DNA from: Lachnospiraceae bacterium
GTDB taxonomy: Bacteria > Bacillota > Clostridia > Lachnospirales > Lachnospiraceae
Direction: 5' to 3'
DNA length: 48,493 nucleotides
Assembly (NCBI GenBank): GCA_017617545.1
Contig: JAFZVZ010000003.1
Coordinates: 1-48,493 of the forward strand
Shown here one piece after another: positions 13,234-19,335 of the stretch. The first letter of the stretch is position 1, and each line of letters begins with the position of its first letter. A program made the position numbers and the translations under genes. Under the pieces are notes generated by a model, which searched no databases, had not been told where the DNA came from, and saw only the letters and a program-made list of their open reading frames with translations.

Positions 13234-14604
13234 ATGGCGGGGAAGAAAATTGATTATTCGGCAATTACAAAGGAGATTACGGCCTATGCCGAACTGTGTC
13301 AGAACAACAGCAACATCGATCCGGCGCTGTACGAGCGCTATGACGTGAAGAGAGGGCTTCGCGACCTGAACGGCAAGGGTGTTCTGACCGGTCTCACGGA
13401 GATTTCGGAGATCCGTGCGACGGAGACCGTGGACGGGGAGAGTGTGCCCTGTCGCGGTTCGTTATTTTACAGAGGCTACAATGTGGAACAGCTGATCGGC
13501 GGCGCGAAGGCCGACGGACGGTTCGGTTTTGAGGAGGTTGTGTACCTGCTGCTGTTCGGCGAACTGCCGAACCGGGAGGAGCTTGATGAGTTTTGCAAGG
13601 TGCTTGTGAAATACCGCTCGCTGCCGTCTTCGTTCGTGCGCGACGTCATCATGAAGAAACCGAGCCCGGATATGATGAACATGCTCTCGAAGTGTGTGCT
13701 GACGCTGTATTCCTACGATACGAACGCGGACGACACGTCGCTTCCGAACGTGCTTCGTCAGTGTCTGCAGCTGATCTCCATGTTCCCGATGATCTCGGTC
13801 TACGGCTACATGGCGTACCAGTACTACAACAAGACGGGAGACCTCGTCATTCACAAGCCGAAGGCGAATCTCTCGATGGCGGAAAATATCCTGCACATGC
13901 TTCGCACGGACAGCCGATACACAGAACTCGAGGCGAAGGTCCTCGACGCCGCGCTCATACTGCACGCGGAGCACGGCGGCGGCAATAACTCGACCTTTAC
14001 AACGCACGTGGTCACGTCCTCGGGCACGGACACGTACTCCGCGATGGCAGCGGCGCTCGGGTCCTTGAAGGGACCGAAGCACGGCGGTGCCAACCGCAAG
14101 GTCGTGCAGATGTTCGCGGACATGAAGGACAAGGTCAACGACTGGACTGACGATGAGGAAGTCGGCACTTACCTAAAAGCACTTTTGCACAAGGAGGCAT
14201 TTGACAATGCCGGCCTGATCTACGGCATCGGCCACGCGATCTACTCGGTGTCCGATCCGAGAGCCGTGATCTTCCGGAACTTCGTTGAAAAGCTCTCGGT
14301 CGAGAAGGGGCGAGAGGAGGAGTTTGCGCTCTATGCAAAGGTGGAGGAGCTTGCTCCGAAGATCATCGCGGAGGAGCGGAAAATGTACAAGGGCGTCAGC
14401 GCCAACGTCGATTTCTTCAGCGGCTTCGCGTATGACATGCTCCGACTTCCGCAGGATCTGTACACGCCGATCTTCGCGATCGCGCGCGTTGCCGGTTGGA
14501 GCGCTCACCGCATGGAGGAGCTGATCAACACGAGCAAGATCATCCGCCCGGCGTACAAGAGCGTGTCCGAGGAGCGGGAGTATGTGCCGCTTAGCGACAG
14601 ATAA
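13234..14604 (+). CDS. Citrate synthase
   Basis: This 456-residue enzyme condenses acetyl-CoA and oxaloacetate to citrate, the entry step to the oxidative branch that makes glutamate in fermenters. The catalytic residues are present: H283 in PKHGGAN, H334 in GHAIYSVSDPR and D393 in NVDFFSG, with the oxaloacetate-site HAEHGGGNNSTF near 244-255. The GHRVY motif of classical enzymes reads GHAIY here. The N-terminal 60 residues are longer than in CitZ, as is usual in Clostridia. GGAGGAGG precedes the start. The next gene begins 15 bases after the stop, so it is probably co-transcribed with a membrane-signalling trio, which is unexpected. Confidence 0.94.
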   Translation: MAGKKIDYSAITKEITAYAELCQNNSNIDPALYERYDVKRGLRDLNGKGVLTGLTEISEIRATETVDGESVPCRGSLFYRGYNVEQLIGGAKADGRFGFEEVVYLLLFGELPNREELDEFCKVLVKYRSLPSSFVRDVIMKKPSPDMMNMLSKCVLTLYSYDTNADDTSLPNVLRQCLQLISMFPMISVYGYMAYQYYNKTGDLVIHKPKANLSMAENILHMLRTDSRYTELEAKVLDAALILHAEHGGGNNSTFTTHVVTSSGTDTYSAMAAALGSLKGPKHGGANRKVVQMFADMKDKVNDWTDDEEVGTYLKALLHKEAFDNAGLIYGIGHAIYSVSDPRAVIFRNFVEKLSVEKGREEEFALYAKVEELAPKIIAEERKMYKGVSANVDFFSGFAYDMLRLPQDLYTPIFAIARVAGWSAHRMEELINTSKIIRPAYKSVSEEREYVPLSDR

Positions 14605-14619
14605 AGAAGGTATGGGGTC

Positions 14620-16455
14620 ATGGTAGAGAAGTTTTTCTGGTACAGTGCGTTTGTGATCGGCCTGGGGCTGTTTGTGTACGGAATCGTGCGCCTGTTCCGG
14701 AAGAAGGAAACCCGGGAGGGACGCTTTGCGTGGGCAGCTTTGTTTGAGTTCCTGTCCTGCTGGGTTTTGTTCATTCCGGACGAGTTCTACAATGATGTTC
14801 CGAAGTCAAAACCGGTACTGCATGTGATCGAGACCGTAGTGACGGCACTTGTGAAGACCTTCAATATTTATTTCGGAGATGCTTTTAAAAGCGTCAAATG
14901 GGAAGGACACCCCGTATTTTCGTCGATCTACGGAATACTGGTGATGCTCACGAATGTCGTCATTCTTCTTTTGGTTGCAGGCTTCCTGGCCAGCTTTCTC
15001 GACGGAACGCTGCAACGGATCCGGTTGTACTTCAAGCGAAACAGAAGAATCGTGTTATTTTCCGTATGCAATGATAAGACGCTCACGATCGCCGAAAGCA
15101 TACCTTCCAAGGGGAAGAAGCCGGTGTTCGCGAATTGCGGAAAGAACACGGACGGAGCGTTGAAGGAACGGATCGAAGCGATCGGTGGTGTTCGGTTTGA
15201 CGCTTCCGTGTCGGAAGTGATGCGCAAGATTGTTGGTCACTCGAGGCGTGTAGAGGTGTTTCTGTTCGGCAACCGGGAGGAGGACAACCTCTCTGAACTG
15301 GAACGCGTTTGCAACTGTGTTGAAGGAGCGAGCAAGACGAAGACGCGAGTGTTCGTTGAGCTTTCGGAAACGCCGTGGAGTATGTACGATGAATATCTGA
15401 AGAGCCATAACTCCGCGGACGGGGAGAAGCTTGTGATCAACTTCGTGCGTACGGAGGAGAATTTTGCGTATAACAATCTGTTGAAATATTCGATCTTTGA
15501 GCATGCGAAGGTGAGCACTGTCGGTGCGGTAAGAGATATTCGGTTCCTTCTGGTCGGCATGAACGAGCGCAATCTGGAGATGCTCAAGGCGGTTCTGCAT
15601 CTGTCGCAGATGCCGGGATACCGGATTACCGTCATGGTTCTCGACCCGGGGGCAAATCGTGAGTTTCTGAAGGCGAAAATGCCGGAGATCTATGATGAAT
15701 GCAATATCCCGGGAGAAGCCGTGTACCGGATACTGTATCGGGAAAATGTCAAGACGGATACGGAACAGTTTGAAGGCATCATCGGGGAGGAGTTTCCGGA
15801 CTTTACGTTTGCGTTTATCGATGTCGGGGACGATATGCGGAATGCGGGCCTTGCGATGCGTCTGAACGCGCTGTGCTTTCGAATGAAGCGGGACGACGGT
15901 TACAGGATTCAGGTGAACATCGATGAGGACGGCGTGTGCGACCACTGGAATCCCGATCTGATGAGGCACGTGGATATTGTCGGCACGCGCAAGGCCACGT
16001 ACGACTACTCCTTCGTCACGATGTCGAACATCGAGAAGGGAACCGTGGCGATCCACAACGTGCGGTACCCGAAGGAGGATCCGAAGAGCCCGACGTGGAT
16101 CTCGTACTGCAACAACGAGTACAACCGTCATTCGGTCTATGCGAGAACGCTCAGTTTCAAGTACAAGGTACAGCTGATCGACGAGTTTTACGGTTCCGAC
16201 TATGGAATCACGCAGAGCGACCGGATATGGAAAATCTATGAGCATATGCGATGGAACGTGTACACGCGCACGCTCGGCTATGTCCGGGCGGACAGCAAGC
16301 TTCTGGACGAAGCCGGCAAGCTTGACCGGAAATCCCGGATGATCGGGCGTGTCCATCATGATCTGATCCCGTTTGATTCTCTGCCGCCGGAGGAACAGGA
16401 CAAGGATGCGCTGATCCTGACTCCGAAGATCGTGGAGATACTGAAGAGCATATAA
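14620..16455 (+). CDS. Membrane protein with two Rossmann/TrkA-like regions and a RyR domain
   Basis: This 611-residue protein has hydrophobic helices near 5-25, 38-55 and 105-128, then a long cytoplasmic part. A first Rossmann-like region starts near residue 142 (RRIVLFSVCND) and a second near 305 (IRFLLVGMNERNLEMLKAV), like the RCK/TrkA-N domains that gate ion channels by binding nucleotides. The C-terminal 100 residues match a bacterial RyR domain, with EHMRWNVYTRTLGY and later HHDLIPFDSLPPEEQDKD. RyR domains occur with TIR and other conflict-system proteins, and the next two genes encode TIR-domain proteins. An ion-channel or nucleotide-sensing role is inferred. I know no named family for the whole chain. 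Confidence 0.72.
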   Translation: MVEKFFWYSAFVIGLGLFVYGIVRLFRKKETREGRFAWAALFEFLSCWVLFIPDEFYNDVPKSKPVLHVIETVVTALVKTFNIYFGDAFKSVKWEGHPVFSSIYGILVMLTNVVILLLVAGFLASFLDGTLQRIRLYFKRNRRIVLFSVCNDKTLTIAESIPSKGKKPVFANCGKNTDGALKERIEAIGGVRFDASVSEVMRKIVGHSRRVEVFLFGNREEDNLSELERVCNCVEGASKTKTRVFVELSETPWSMYDEYLKSHNSADGEKLVINFVRTEENFAYNNLLKYSIFEHAKVSTVGAVRDIRFLLVGMNERNLEMLKAVLHLSQMPGYRITVMVLDPGANREFLKAKMPEIYDECNIPGEAVYRILYRENVKTDTEQFEGIIGEEFPDFTFAFIDVGDDMRNAGLAMRLNALCFRMKRDDGYRIQVNIDEDGVCDHWNPDLMRHVDIVGTRKATYDYSFVTMSNIEKGTVAIHNVRYPKEDPKSPTWISYCNNEYNRHSVYARTLSFKYKVQLIDEFYGSDYGITQSDRIWKIYEHMRWNVYTRTLGYVRADSKLLDEAGKLDRKSRMIGRVHHDLIPFDSLPPEEQDKDALILTPKIVEILKSI

Positions 16456-16532
16456 ACCGGCGCCTGATATGGATGAGACCGGACCGGCACCGGGTGTGAG
16501 GTCGCATTTTCCGACGGAGGAGGCGTTCTGAC

Positions 16533-17642
16533 ATGAAAAAGGGAGCACCGTTCCCCCCGTATATGGGAGGCGAAGACTATCTCTTTACAAGCTACGCGCA
16601 CAAGGACAGTGACCGCGTGTTTGAGATTATCACCGCGCTGCACCGCGACAAATACAGAGTGTGGTACGACGAGGGAATCGAGGTCGGCGTCAACTGGCCG
16701 ATGGTGGTGGCGGAGAAGCTTTTGCGCAGCGCGCGCGTGATGATCTTTATCTCCGCGAACGCGATCGCTTCGCAGAACTGTATGAGGGAGATCAACTACT
16801 CGGTCTCGCAGAGGAAGGAGATGCTCGTCATTCTCCTTGACGACTGCAAGATCCCGGCGGATCTCGAGCTGCAGCTGTCCGTGGTGAAGAAGATCCGGTA
16901 CAGCGACACCGCGCGCACAGTGGCCGAGATCGAAGCATGCCTTGACGATTCCCTGATCGGGGACGGTGTCAACGGCTACGGGACGACGGCGGCGAAAAAG
17001 AGGGGCTCGCTGTCTTTGTGGCATGTGCTGACCGTTGTGTTCTTGCTCCTGTTCGCGGCAGCGGTCGGATTTCTTTTGTACCGTATGAAAAATCAGCCTG
17101 CCGCGAAGCAGGCACCCGCGCAGAAGATCATATCCACCGAGACCAATCCCGAGGTGAACGTGAGCACCTTCAAGGACGCGACAGCGCTTACGATCGCTCT
17201 GAAGGCCTCGGAGGACAAATACATTTTCCTCTGCGGAAACAGCATGGTGTCAGATGCCTCCGCAATCGTGCGGAAGGGCGGTAAGTGGTACATCGGGGAG
17301 GATGCTGTCCCGACCGGAGGAATCACGGATCTTTCGGTGTTTCAGGGAAAAATGATAGAACAGCTCGCCGTGGTGAACGAGCAGATCACGACGATCGCGG
17401 AGCTTTCGGCGCTTACGGAGCTTACCTACCTTGACCTGTCAGGCAATCCGATCAAGGATCTCTCCGTGATCAGTACATTGCCGAAGCTTGAGACGCTGCG
17501 GATCGTCGGGATTTCCGCGGACGCGGATCTCTCGGTGCTCGCGGGGATGAAGTCGCTTGCAAAGGTGTACATCAGTTACGAGCTTGCTGCGTCCGCGAAG
17601 CCTCTGGTCGACGCGGGGATCGAAGTGATCCTGAAGCAGTGA
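16533..17642 (+). CDS. TIR - transmembrane - leucine-rich-repeat protein
   Basis: This 369-residue protein starts with a TIR domain (about 14-135). Box 1 is YLFTSYAHKD, the BB-loop region is YRVWYDEGIEVGVNW, and E86 lies in the N-C-x-x-E arrangement of the catalytic glutamate of NAD-cleaving TIR domains. One transmembrane helix follows (about 162-184), then an outer domain with leucine-rich-repeat units near 285-345 (LTYLDLSGNPIKDLSVI). The order TIR, membrane, LRR is that of an animal Toll-like receptor read backwards. Predicted topology puts TIR inside and LRR outside. It could signal by degrading NAD+ or making a cyclic ADP-ribose product, but neither is shown. It lies 77 bases after the RyR gene. 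Confidence 0.85.
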   Translation: MKKGAPFPPYMGGEDYLFTSYAHKDSDRVFEIITALHRDKYRVWYDEGIEVGVNWPMVVAEKLLRSARVMIFISANAIASQNCMREINYSVSQRKEMLVILLDDCKIPADLELQLSVVKKIRYSDTARTVAEIEACLDDSLIGDGVNGYGTTAAKKRGSLSLWHVLTVVFLLLFAAAVGFLLYRMKNQPAAKQAPAQKIISTETNPEVNVSTFKDATALTIALKASEDKYIFLCGNSMVSDASAIVRKGGKWYIGEDAVPTGGITDLSVFQGKMIEQLAVVNEQITTIAELSALTELTYLDLSGNPIKDLSVISTLPKLETLRIVGISADADLSVLAGMKSLAKVYISYELAASAKPLVDAGIEVILKQ

Positions 17643-17685
17643 GCGGATAACCGGGATTGATGCAGGAGAAGGGAGGACGTGTCAC

Positions 17686-19335
17686 ATGAAGAAGTACAGC
17701 GGAAACCGGAAAGCGTTCGTGATGGCCGTCTACGACGCGAAGAACGAGGCGGAGGCACTGAAAGCGATCGAGGAGCTCTCCGCGAAGGTGAACGTGTATT
17801 ACACGTCGGAGCTCGGCAACCGGGATAAGAAGATCATGAAGAAGGCCGCCGCGCTTGTGTGCTTCTTAAGCGAGGACACCATGCCTGCCATGCAGGAGGT
17901 CATCGCGTACGCGGCAACCCTGAACAAGGAGATCGTGCCGGTGTACTTCGACCGATTCACACTTGAACCGGGCATGCGCATGATCCTGGGCACCAAGCAG
18001 GGTGTATCGAAATACAAGTATGAGGACGAGACGGAATACCGCAGGGAACTGGCGGAGGCACCGTTGTTCAGCGGGTTGCAGATCACGCCGGAACAGAAAA
18101 AAAGCTTCAAACTGATCGTCGCGCTCTCGGCAATCGCGGCGGTTGCCGTCATCGCGGTCGCGTTGACGATCGCGTACATCAACTATTATTCGGCCAACAA
18201 GATCGATGAGACTTCCCTGTTAGGGCAGCTCGGCCTCTCGGGCAACGCCAAATCCATCAAGAAGGTGTATGTGTACGGCGCGGAGCTGCGCGACACGTTT
18301 GAGAAGGACGGCGTGCATCTGATCAGCTACGCCGGTTCCTACGATAAGTTCCATGTGATCCTGCCGAGCATCAACGGCACGGTGGAGGTGGGGGCCATCA
18401 CGGATGTCAGCGATTTTACGCAGCTGGAAAACCTGGAGGAGTTATCCATCGCCGGTAATCCGCTGTCGGACCCTGCTCCGCTGTGGGAGCTTAAGAAGTT
18501 GAGAAGGCTGGATATCTCCGCGAACCAGGCGGAGCTGAAGCTCGACGGGATCAGCGGCCTTACGAACCTGCAGTTTCTGAATATCGCGTATTGCAATGTC
18601 ACCTCGGGGCTTGAGGAACTGAAGACCATGTCATCCCTGAAGACGTTGTGCGTCAGCCACGAGATGGGAGAGCAGCTTGCGGCACTCAGCGAGGTCACGT
18701 TTGACATTGTTTATGTGGACGTGGCAGTGCATACATACGAGGAGCTGAAGGCAGCGAGCGAGAACGAGCACGTGTATTTTATTTTCGTGCAGAATCCGGA
18801 CTATCGTCCGGACGCAGAGTATGATGATGTGAAGGATCTTGTGATTGAGATCCCCGAGGGCGAGACGATCACGATCCGCCGCAATGTGCAGGTAGGCGGC
18901 GTCCGGATCCACCTGATCAACCGCGGTACGATGATCGTCTCCGGGGAGATCGAGATGGGCCTTACGACCATCGAAAACCGAGGGACTATCGATGTGTGTG
19001 AGGGCGGACTGTACCTCTGCGGAATGGCAGGGACCGAAAACTACGGCACGATGATCATCGAGAAGGGCGCGAGACAGCAGGTGGAGCGCGGCAACGAGAT
19101 CTGGCTGAAGGAAGGCAGCACCTATACGCTCAACGGAACGCTCGGACTGTACATCGGAGGCGCCTTCTACATCGAGGGCGGCGAGATGGTCAACAACGGG
19201 GAGATCGAGGTCGCGCATGCGGACAATTTTCAATGGTATCCGGATGATTCGAGAGATGAGTTTACGTCCCTTCCAGGCAGCGGGACGGTGAAGATCGTTG
19301 AGGTTGAGTTTGAAATGGATCCTGAAGCTGAGTGA
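17686..19335 (+). CDS. TIR-like - transmembrane - LRR - beta-repeat protein
   Basis: This 549-residue protein is a divergent paralogue of its neighbour. The N-terminal domain (1-120) keeps the TIR order of strands and a Glu (E71, in PAMQEV) at the catalytic place, but the BB-loop region is much shorter and the Cys before that Glu is gone. A strong transmembrane helix spans about 141-168. The outer part has LRR units (about 240-320: LEELSIAGNPLSD, LRRLDISANQAEL). It continues into a Gly/Asn-rich ladder (about 385-520: INRGTMIVSGE, ENRGTIDVCEGG, ENYGTMIIEKGA) that looks like a beta-helix or solenoid. It probably pairs with the TIR protein as sensor or regulator. It ends at a strong terminator. 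Confidence 0.8.
   Translation: MKKYSGNRKAFVMAVYDAKNEAEALKAIEELSAKVNVYYTSELGNRDKKIMKKAAALVCFLSEDTMPAMQEVIAYAATLNKEIVPVYFDRFTLEPGMRMILGTKQGVSKYKYEDETEYRRELAEAPLFSGLQITPEQKKSFKLIVALSAIAAVAVIAVALTIAYINYYSANKIDETSLLGQLGLSGNAKSIKKVYVYGAELRDTFEKDGVHLISYAGSYDKFHVILPSINGTVEVGAITDVSDFTQLENLEELSIAGNPLSDPAPLWELKKLRRLDISANQAELKLDGISGLTNLQFLNIAYCNVTSGLEELKTMSSLKTLCVSHEMGEQLAALSEVTFDIVYVDVAVHTYEELKAASENEHVYFIFVQNPDYRPDAEYDDVKDLVIEIPEGETITIRRNVQVGGVRIHLINRGTMIVSGEIEMGLTTIENRGTIDVCEGGLYLCGMAGTENYGTMIIEKGARQQVERGNEIWLKEGSTYTLNGTLGLYIGGAFYIEGGEMVNNGEIEVAHADNFQWYPDDSRDEFTSLPGSGTVKIVEVEFEMDPEAE

Follow-up and report, generated by a model that had tools for sequence, protein, structure and literature searches.

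Three adjacent genes in the genome of a Lachnospiraceae bacterium probably form a nucleotide signalling module, in which TIR receptors make an ADP-ribose signal, a RyR domain reads it and a membrane effector is gated. They lie in the first 48,493 nucleotides of contig JAFZVZ010000003.1 (GenBank assembly GCA_017617545.1), and the whole of this stretch is referred to here as the window. An earlier reading made from the sequence alone had described three same-strand genes separated by 77 and 43 bases, and the open reading frames, strand and gaps were all confirmed. The domains it had named were supported by profile and fold searches: RCK/TrkA-like and RyR domains in gene 1 (product P0001), a TIR domain, transmembrane segment and LRR in gene 2 (P0002), and a TIR-like domain, transmembrane segment, LRR and beta-repeat in gene 3 (P0003). 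The three genes of this cassette are real and under purifying selection, with ratios of nonsynonymous to synonymous substitution rates (dN/dS) of 0.09-0.16 against the copies in genomes G014 and G020.

Linkage of RyR and TIR genes across genomes

Relatives of P0001 were collected with a 12-row profile, which found them in 42 of the 392 order-level and 4 of the 299 phylum-level genomes (the window's own genome, G251 and G305 occurring in both), and with a single-sequence search, which found them in 11 of 397 genomes of the family, the window's own included. The merged matches comprise 58 RyR loci in 54 genomes; G282 (E 8.7e-4) and the genome of locus L018 were left out. At least 53 of 55 genomes with P0001 relatives have a TIR_2 match. 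At 28 or more of the 58 RyR loci, in 20 of 31 genera, a TIR match lies within 10 kilobases (kb) on the same contig. By chance 1.18 such loci are expected, in a calculation that ignores contig ends, and none of 100,000 simulations reached the observed count. Ordinary K+ channels from 19 of the same genomes, taken as pore-only matches, served as a control: among the matches listed, a TIR gene lies within 10 kb in 0 of 28 cases and within 20 kb in one. The linkage, like the anatomy of the genes, is well supported. The co-occurrence for which the sequence-only reading proposed a test is borne out for the pair of RyR and TIR genes. Judged by the refuting condition of that reading, separation of the genes in relatives, the exact trio is not obligatory.

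The arrangement of the genes was compared in a set of 53 stretches, which includes the window, L005, L018 and L020, and in a set of 58, from which L005 and L020 were left out and to which seven stretches were added. Genes were called as longest open reading frames, and those of L020 were missed by the caller. In the 53-stretch set, a RyR gene was detected by script in 50 stretches and both a RyR and a TIR gene in 24. The two stand side by side on the same strand in 14 of the 53, covering ten genera, in either order and with gaps of 2-206 bases; L020 is a fifteenth such stretch. Both genes are also present in three of the seven added stretches (L179, L180 and L181). The citrate synthase gene that flanks the cassette in the window is absent from the other stretches searched. 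Elsewhere, a P0001 relative adjoins a DUF4062-STAND/NACHT-type NTPase with TPR (L036:2414-6310), in a genome without a TIR_2 match among the matches listed.

The RyR domain and its ligand residues

A 21-row profile of the RyR region, the window included, matches the RyR1 R12 repeats (6uhi, E 3.2e-30), a 'putative ryanodine receptor' (3nrt, 4.3e-15) and a 139-residue RyR-domain protein (35tm, 1.4e-9) in the PDB, and 16 of its 21 rows match PF02026 at E <= 0.01. P0001 itself does not reach the gathering score of PF02026 and has no match to this family. A 17-row RyR profile built without the window, L018, L033 and L034 recovers its residues 500-598 with 38.7 bits, compared to 8.5 bits for the best of 1000 shuffled sequences.

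Alignment with RyDEP, the phage protein DyoEdafos gp78, shows that all four ADP-ribose-contacting residues are present in P0001. Across 61 RyR regions, the first His is kept in 59, the Trp in 60, the second His in 56 and the Asp in 39. According to its description (PMC13232231), which deals with phage RyR proteins directed against Thoeris, RyDEP is a glycosidase that binds and cleaves 2' and 3' cyclic ADP-ribose (cADPR), a TIR-made signal. Contacts to the ADP-ribose product come from its residues H75, W78, H100 and D117, of which H75 and D117 form the catalytic pair. In the same source, six of eight tested phage RyR homologues bind 2' or 3' cADPR, and the other tested homologues do not cleave it despite high conservation. 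Because of these two observations, ligand binding is a safer guess than cleavage for the P0001 domain.

The opposite role, an off-switch in which gene 1 would hydrolyse or soak up the TIR-made signal and thereby limit self-harm, with the ring and membrane part just tethering it at the TIR receptors, is considered unlikely. It would fit the retention of the RyDEP catalytic pair as H542 and D596 and the glycosidase activity of RyDEP, but it is at odds with the lack of cleavage by the other phage homologues and with the 22 RyR regions in which the Asp is not seen. Nor does it explain why RyR domains of relatives are joined to a kinase, to a Card1-like nuclease or to a K+ pore.

The membrane part of gene 1 and its K+ channel relatives

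Searches of P0001 against Pfam, NCBIfam and PADLOC returned nothing above cut-off. Its relatives, at 17-68% identity, have a common core. The AlphaFold model of P0001, built on three sequences, is weak (predicted local distance difference test, pLDDT, 54.3) and places four predicted membrane helices before two RCK/TrkA-like regions, whereas a plain hydropathy scan finds segments at residues 5 and 98 only. With this model, Foldseek ranks two KCC1 rows first, followed by the gating rings of CASTOR, GsuK and TrkA (TM-scores 0.15-0.21), and a VIA search is led by the rings of TrkA, CASTOR and DMI1. MthK (6oly) aligns to residues 97-279 of the model over 158 residues with a root-mean-square deviation of 4.1 A, an interval that takes in the final membrane helix and the first of the RCK domains. 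In this low-confidence model, P0001 shows the arrangement typical of RCK-gated K+ channels, a membrane helix followed by a tandem RCK ring. Of the folds that the sequence-only reading proposed to check by modelling, the RCK rings were recovered by fold search and RyR by profile; the P0001 model is weak and that of the TIR region of gene 3 poor. P0001 was not adopted as a K+ channel, because its sequence lacks a selectivity filter (TVGYG or like).

Such a filter is present in seven relatives. A pattern search of the 58-stretch set found TVGYGD in the RyR proteins of six loci (L084, L087, L093, L094, L095 and L114), and a seventh protein with SVGYGD was found by eye in L177, which matches Pfam Ion_trans_2 (3.3e-13) and, just below cut-off, RyR (1.1e-5). 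These seven relatives are K+ channels with an RCK-like ring ending in a C-terminal RyR domain. The N-terminus of a six-row channel-type profile matches K+ channels (1orq, 4.4e-18) and its C-terminus RyR1 (6uhi, 7.9e-20). Compared by hhalign with a 20-row P0001-type profile, it aligns over ring and RyR domain, from the last membrane helix on, with an E-value of 5e-41. A TIR gene is present in the stretch at three of the six TVGYGD loci. The earlier suggestion that the RyR protein acts as an effector or channel is supported by homology to these relatives, which have the same ring and RyR domain.

Five stretches with a channel-type protein (L087, L093, L094, L095 and L114) contain a second RyR protein in the same locus. 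In L087, L093, L094 and L095, the second protein is P0001-like in size and its RyR domain is without the last Asp. This coexistence of channel-type and P0001-sized proteins hints at two-subunit assemblies. A CASTOR/Pollux-like protein, with a Pfam match below cut-off, adjoins the RyR gene in L035 and L040.

Other RyR proteins have different partners. The domain is joined to a protein kinase domain in two large proteins (L076:6899-10912 and L092:6551-10777), with TIR genes in both stretches, and to a Card1-like nuclease match below the Pfam cut-off in two (L088:8219-11374 and again L092:6551-10777), as would be expected for a sensor part. Small RyR-domain proteins of 93-102 amino acids were also observed (L040:11034-11342, L092:6262-6549, L104:11230-11511 and L097:1-290, which reaches the contig end); they share stretches with larger RyR genes.

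The TIR proteins

Searching the PDB with an 11-row TIR profile headed by P0002 gives matches to Cat1 (3.9e-14) and AbTIR (8g83, 1.4e-9). The column of P0002 E86 is Glu in all 31 aligned TIR sequences, P0002 and P0003 included; from SARM1-type TIRs, we take it to be the catalytic Glu. The TIR-like domain of P0003 scores 25.2 bits, compared to 7.4 for the best of 1000 shuffled sequences, with an hhalign probability of 92, and this fold is supported by sequence alone, the model being poor in that region. MAFFT and hhalign place its Glu71 in line with the TIR Glu, and HMMER puts it one residue off; the loop that follows the second strand is shortened. P0003 may be a regulatory partner. The LRR part of gene 3 is 30% identical to that of gene 2 over 110 amino acids.

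The 58-stretch set contains 31 TIR proteins at E <= 1e-7, and 21 of them have a hydrophobic segment. The other parts of the TIR proteins near RyR genes vary and include LRR, WD40/PQQ propeller, TPR and Sel1. Such variety beside a common TIR domain would be the pattern of receptors that combine a single signalling end with many different sensing ends. Paired TIR proteins with a membrane segment also occur near RyR genes in L096 and in L095, where the second is weak (E 3e-3). The window's own genome has at least three more TIR_2 matches outside the cassette (C41:111944, C32:109482 and C8:9941).

Genomic context of the cassette

The place after citrate synthase is a variable slot and the cassette is accessory. 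In a comparison of 19 citrate synthase stretches (L117-L135), P0001 follows citrate synthase in two, the window and G014. In ten (L119, L122-L126, L130 and L133-L135), an arabinofuranosidase region follows and P0001 is absent; the same region (Pfam Alpha-L-AF_C) flanks the cassette in the window, with a DUF6171 gene in between. A family 2 glycosyltransferase occupies the slot in two (L118:3060-4115 and L121:3010-4107), and the remaining five have other neighbours. G020 was left unscored, as its contig is cut there. The G014 copies are 68% (gene 1, L020:5521-7362), 83% (gene 2) and 87% (gene 3) identical to those of the window. Gene 1 is also the most diverged by synonymous substitutions (dS 1.35, against 0.70 and 0.54 for genes 2 and 3), and its divergence from the window is concentrated in the first 100 residues. 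Gene 1 starts 15 bases past the stop codon of citrate synthase and a terminator-like stem follows gene 3, for which reason the cassette may be transcribed together with citrate synthase. The features are listed in Table 1.

Table 1. Features of the cassette and its flanks, with positions in the window
Feature	Position	Strand	Remarks
Citrate synthase	13234..14604	+	Upstream flank of the slot, outside the proposed mechanism
Gene 1 (P0001, 611 aa)	14620..16455	+	Membrane protein, tandem RCK-like Rossmann domains and C-terminal RyR domain
P0001 membrane part, residues 2-138	14623..15033	+	Predicted membrane helices 2-25, 32-50, 65-91, 98-138; AlphaFold model, low confidence here
P0001 RCK/TrkA-like region 1, about residues 141-290	15040..15489	+	Model and fold searches
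P0001 RCK/TrkA-like region 2, about residues 303-458	15526..15993	+	Model and fold searches
P0001 RyR (R12) domain, residues 499-603	16114..16428	+	H542, W545, H579, D596 match RyDEP H75, W78, H100, D117
Gene 2 (P0002, 369 aa)	16533..17642	+	TIR, transmembrane segment, LRR
P0002 TIR domain	16563..16910	+	Glu86 in conserved column
P0002 LRR stretch, residues 264-359	17322..17609	+	Internalin-type
Gene 3 (P0003, 549 aa)	17686..19335	+	Degenerate TIR-like domain, transmembrane segment, LRR, beta-solenoid
P0003 TIR-like domain, residues 7-116	17704..18033	+	Loop after second strand shortened
P0003 beta-solenoid, about residues 340-540	18703..19305	+	Adhesin/tapirin-like
Terminator-like stem-loop	19356..19392	+	16 pairs; closes the cassette after gene 3

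Proposed mechanism and alternatives

For the proposed module, we infer the topology and all enzymatic, binding, gating and physiological steps. Genes 2 and 3 would encode two single-pass proteins with outer sensors (LRR, and LRR with beta-solenoid) and inner TIR domains. Engagement of the outer parts would cause the TIR domains to pair or cluster, and the putatively catalytic TIR of gene 2 would convert NAD+ to an ADP-ribose-type signal, possibly a cyclic isomer. The RyR domain of gene 1 would bind this signal, and the RCK-like ring would then open or change the membrane part and hence ion flow. The outcome could be defence by dormancy or death, or an envelope-stress response. The more specific version, a bacterial TIR-to-RyR channel axis in which a cyclic ADP-ribose isomer from the membrane TIR receptors binds RyR and opens an RCK-ringed channel, is put forward tentatively and remains somewhat doubtful.

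Several observations weigh against the signalling module. At 30 of the 58 RyR loci (e.g. L033 and L034), no TIR gene lies within 10 kb among the matches listed, and at 24 of these none is found anywhere on the contig among these matches; L018, outside this count, also has none within 10 kb. Among 22 genomes of the genus, three have the full trio, and a quality limit of 90% completeness and 5% contamination leaves just the window's own of these three. No match was found in the viral contigs and plasmids searched, and in the PADLOC scan genes 1 and 3 were unmatched and gene 2 had weak matches alone. As regards the proteins, the membrane part of P0001 is poorly modelled and its K+ filter is missing, the degenerate TIR of gene 3 may lack enzyme activity, a hydrophobic segment is missing from ten of the 31 TIR proteins, and the 20-row P0001-type profile contains second RyR proteins from channel loci. 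The same residues serve in RyDEP for cleavage of the signal. ATP or ADP could be the ligand instead, given that human RyR3 R12 was solved with AMP-PCP, as stated in PMC13232231.

This last point, together with the RyR loci that have no TIR gene nearby, would also fit an energy or redox gauge, in which the RCK and RyR domains would sense ATP, ADP or NAD+ and adjust ion flux accordingly, and the TIR proteins would serve as structural receptors, clustering with gene 1 without making a signal. Both ADP and NAD+ activate GsuK, a K+ channel with two RCK domains (PMC3510474). However, a gauge of this kind would account neither for the TIR Glu retained in every aligned domain nor for a RyR-TIR link far above chance, and it is regarded as improbable. 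That TIR and RyR genes are accessory genes gathering in the same variable slots and not acting together is very improbable: the slot in the window does hold the trio, nothing or a glycosyltransferase depending on the congener, and RyR/TIR order varies between loci, but the side-by-side pairs span ten genera and were found in stretches without the window's citrate synthase flank.

Comparison with known systems

To our knowledge, the effectors of known TIR signalling systems read ADP-ribose signals via SLOG, Macro or caspase-like parts. If the signalling module is correct, a RyR domain attached to a gating ring or K+ channel would add a new class to these effectors. A close counterpart is Thoeris, with its ThsB TIR and nucleotide-sensing effector. 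As in Thoeris, a TIR gene lies beside a gene with a sensor domain suited to an ADP-ribose-type signal and the TIR glutamate is kept, and the cassette may work like a Thoeris-type pathway. In contrast to Thoeris, its TIR proteins combine a membrane segment with LRR or solenoid parts, and the partner has RCK-like and RyR domains. Pfam, NCBIfam and PADLOC scans of P0001-P0003 detected none of the SLOG, Macro and caspase-like effector types, and the cassette was not adopted as Thoeris.

In the literature searched, no account of paired TIR and RyR genes in bacteria was found, and the sequence-only reading knew of no described system with this set of proteins; most subscription papers were outside reach, and an earlier mention is possible. 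PMC9503650 does not mention RyR. In the available part of a review, SARM1/cADPR/RyR in axons and Thoeris are treated separately (PMC8295901).

RyDEP and the RyR/R12 domains (PF02026) share with P0001 the domain itself and four ligand residues at matching positions. However, RyDEP is a 138-residue phage counter-defence enzyme, whereas in P0001 the RyR domain sits at the end of a membrane protein encoded next to cellular TIR genes. In the channel-axis version, the phage RyR proteins would have a counterpart in cells and would themselves be sensors that phages stole or matched. A RyR effector of this kind would also offer a reason for phages to carry RyR proteins able to bind or cut cADPR. With MthK, GsuK, CASTOR/DMI1 and TrkA-TrkH, P0001 shares a predicted tandem RCK gating ring, as judged by fold search. 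It differs from them in the added RyR domain and in having no recognisable K+ filter, although seven relatives have one.

In animal ryanodine receptors, the R12 repeats of RyR1 match the RyR profile, and the bacterial relatives likewise combine channel and RyR domain in one protein. Their K+-type pore and RCK ring give them an otherwise different architecture. The debated direct action of cADPR on RyR domains could then become testable in a small bacterial channel. A route from TIR over cADPR to RyR has been proposed for SARM1 in axons, and cADPR made by the SARM1 TIR is described as targeting RyR in the review (PMC8295901). The channel axis would be a bacterial parallel, perhaps a forerunner, of animal cADPR-ryanodine receptor signalling. 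In bacteria, unlike in the SARM1 route, the TIR and RyR genes adjoin one another, and the pairing of TIR proteins with a membrane protein bearing a ring and a RyR domain suggests that the cassette may be a bacterial version of signal-gated membrane control.

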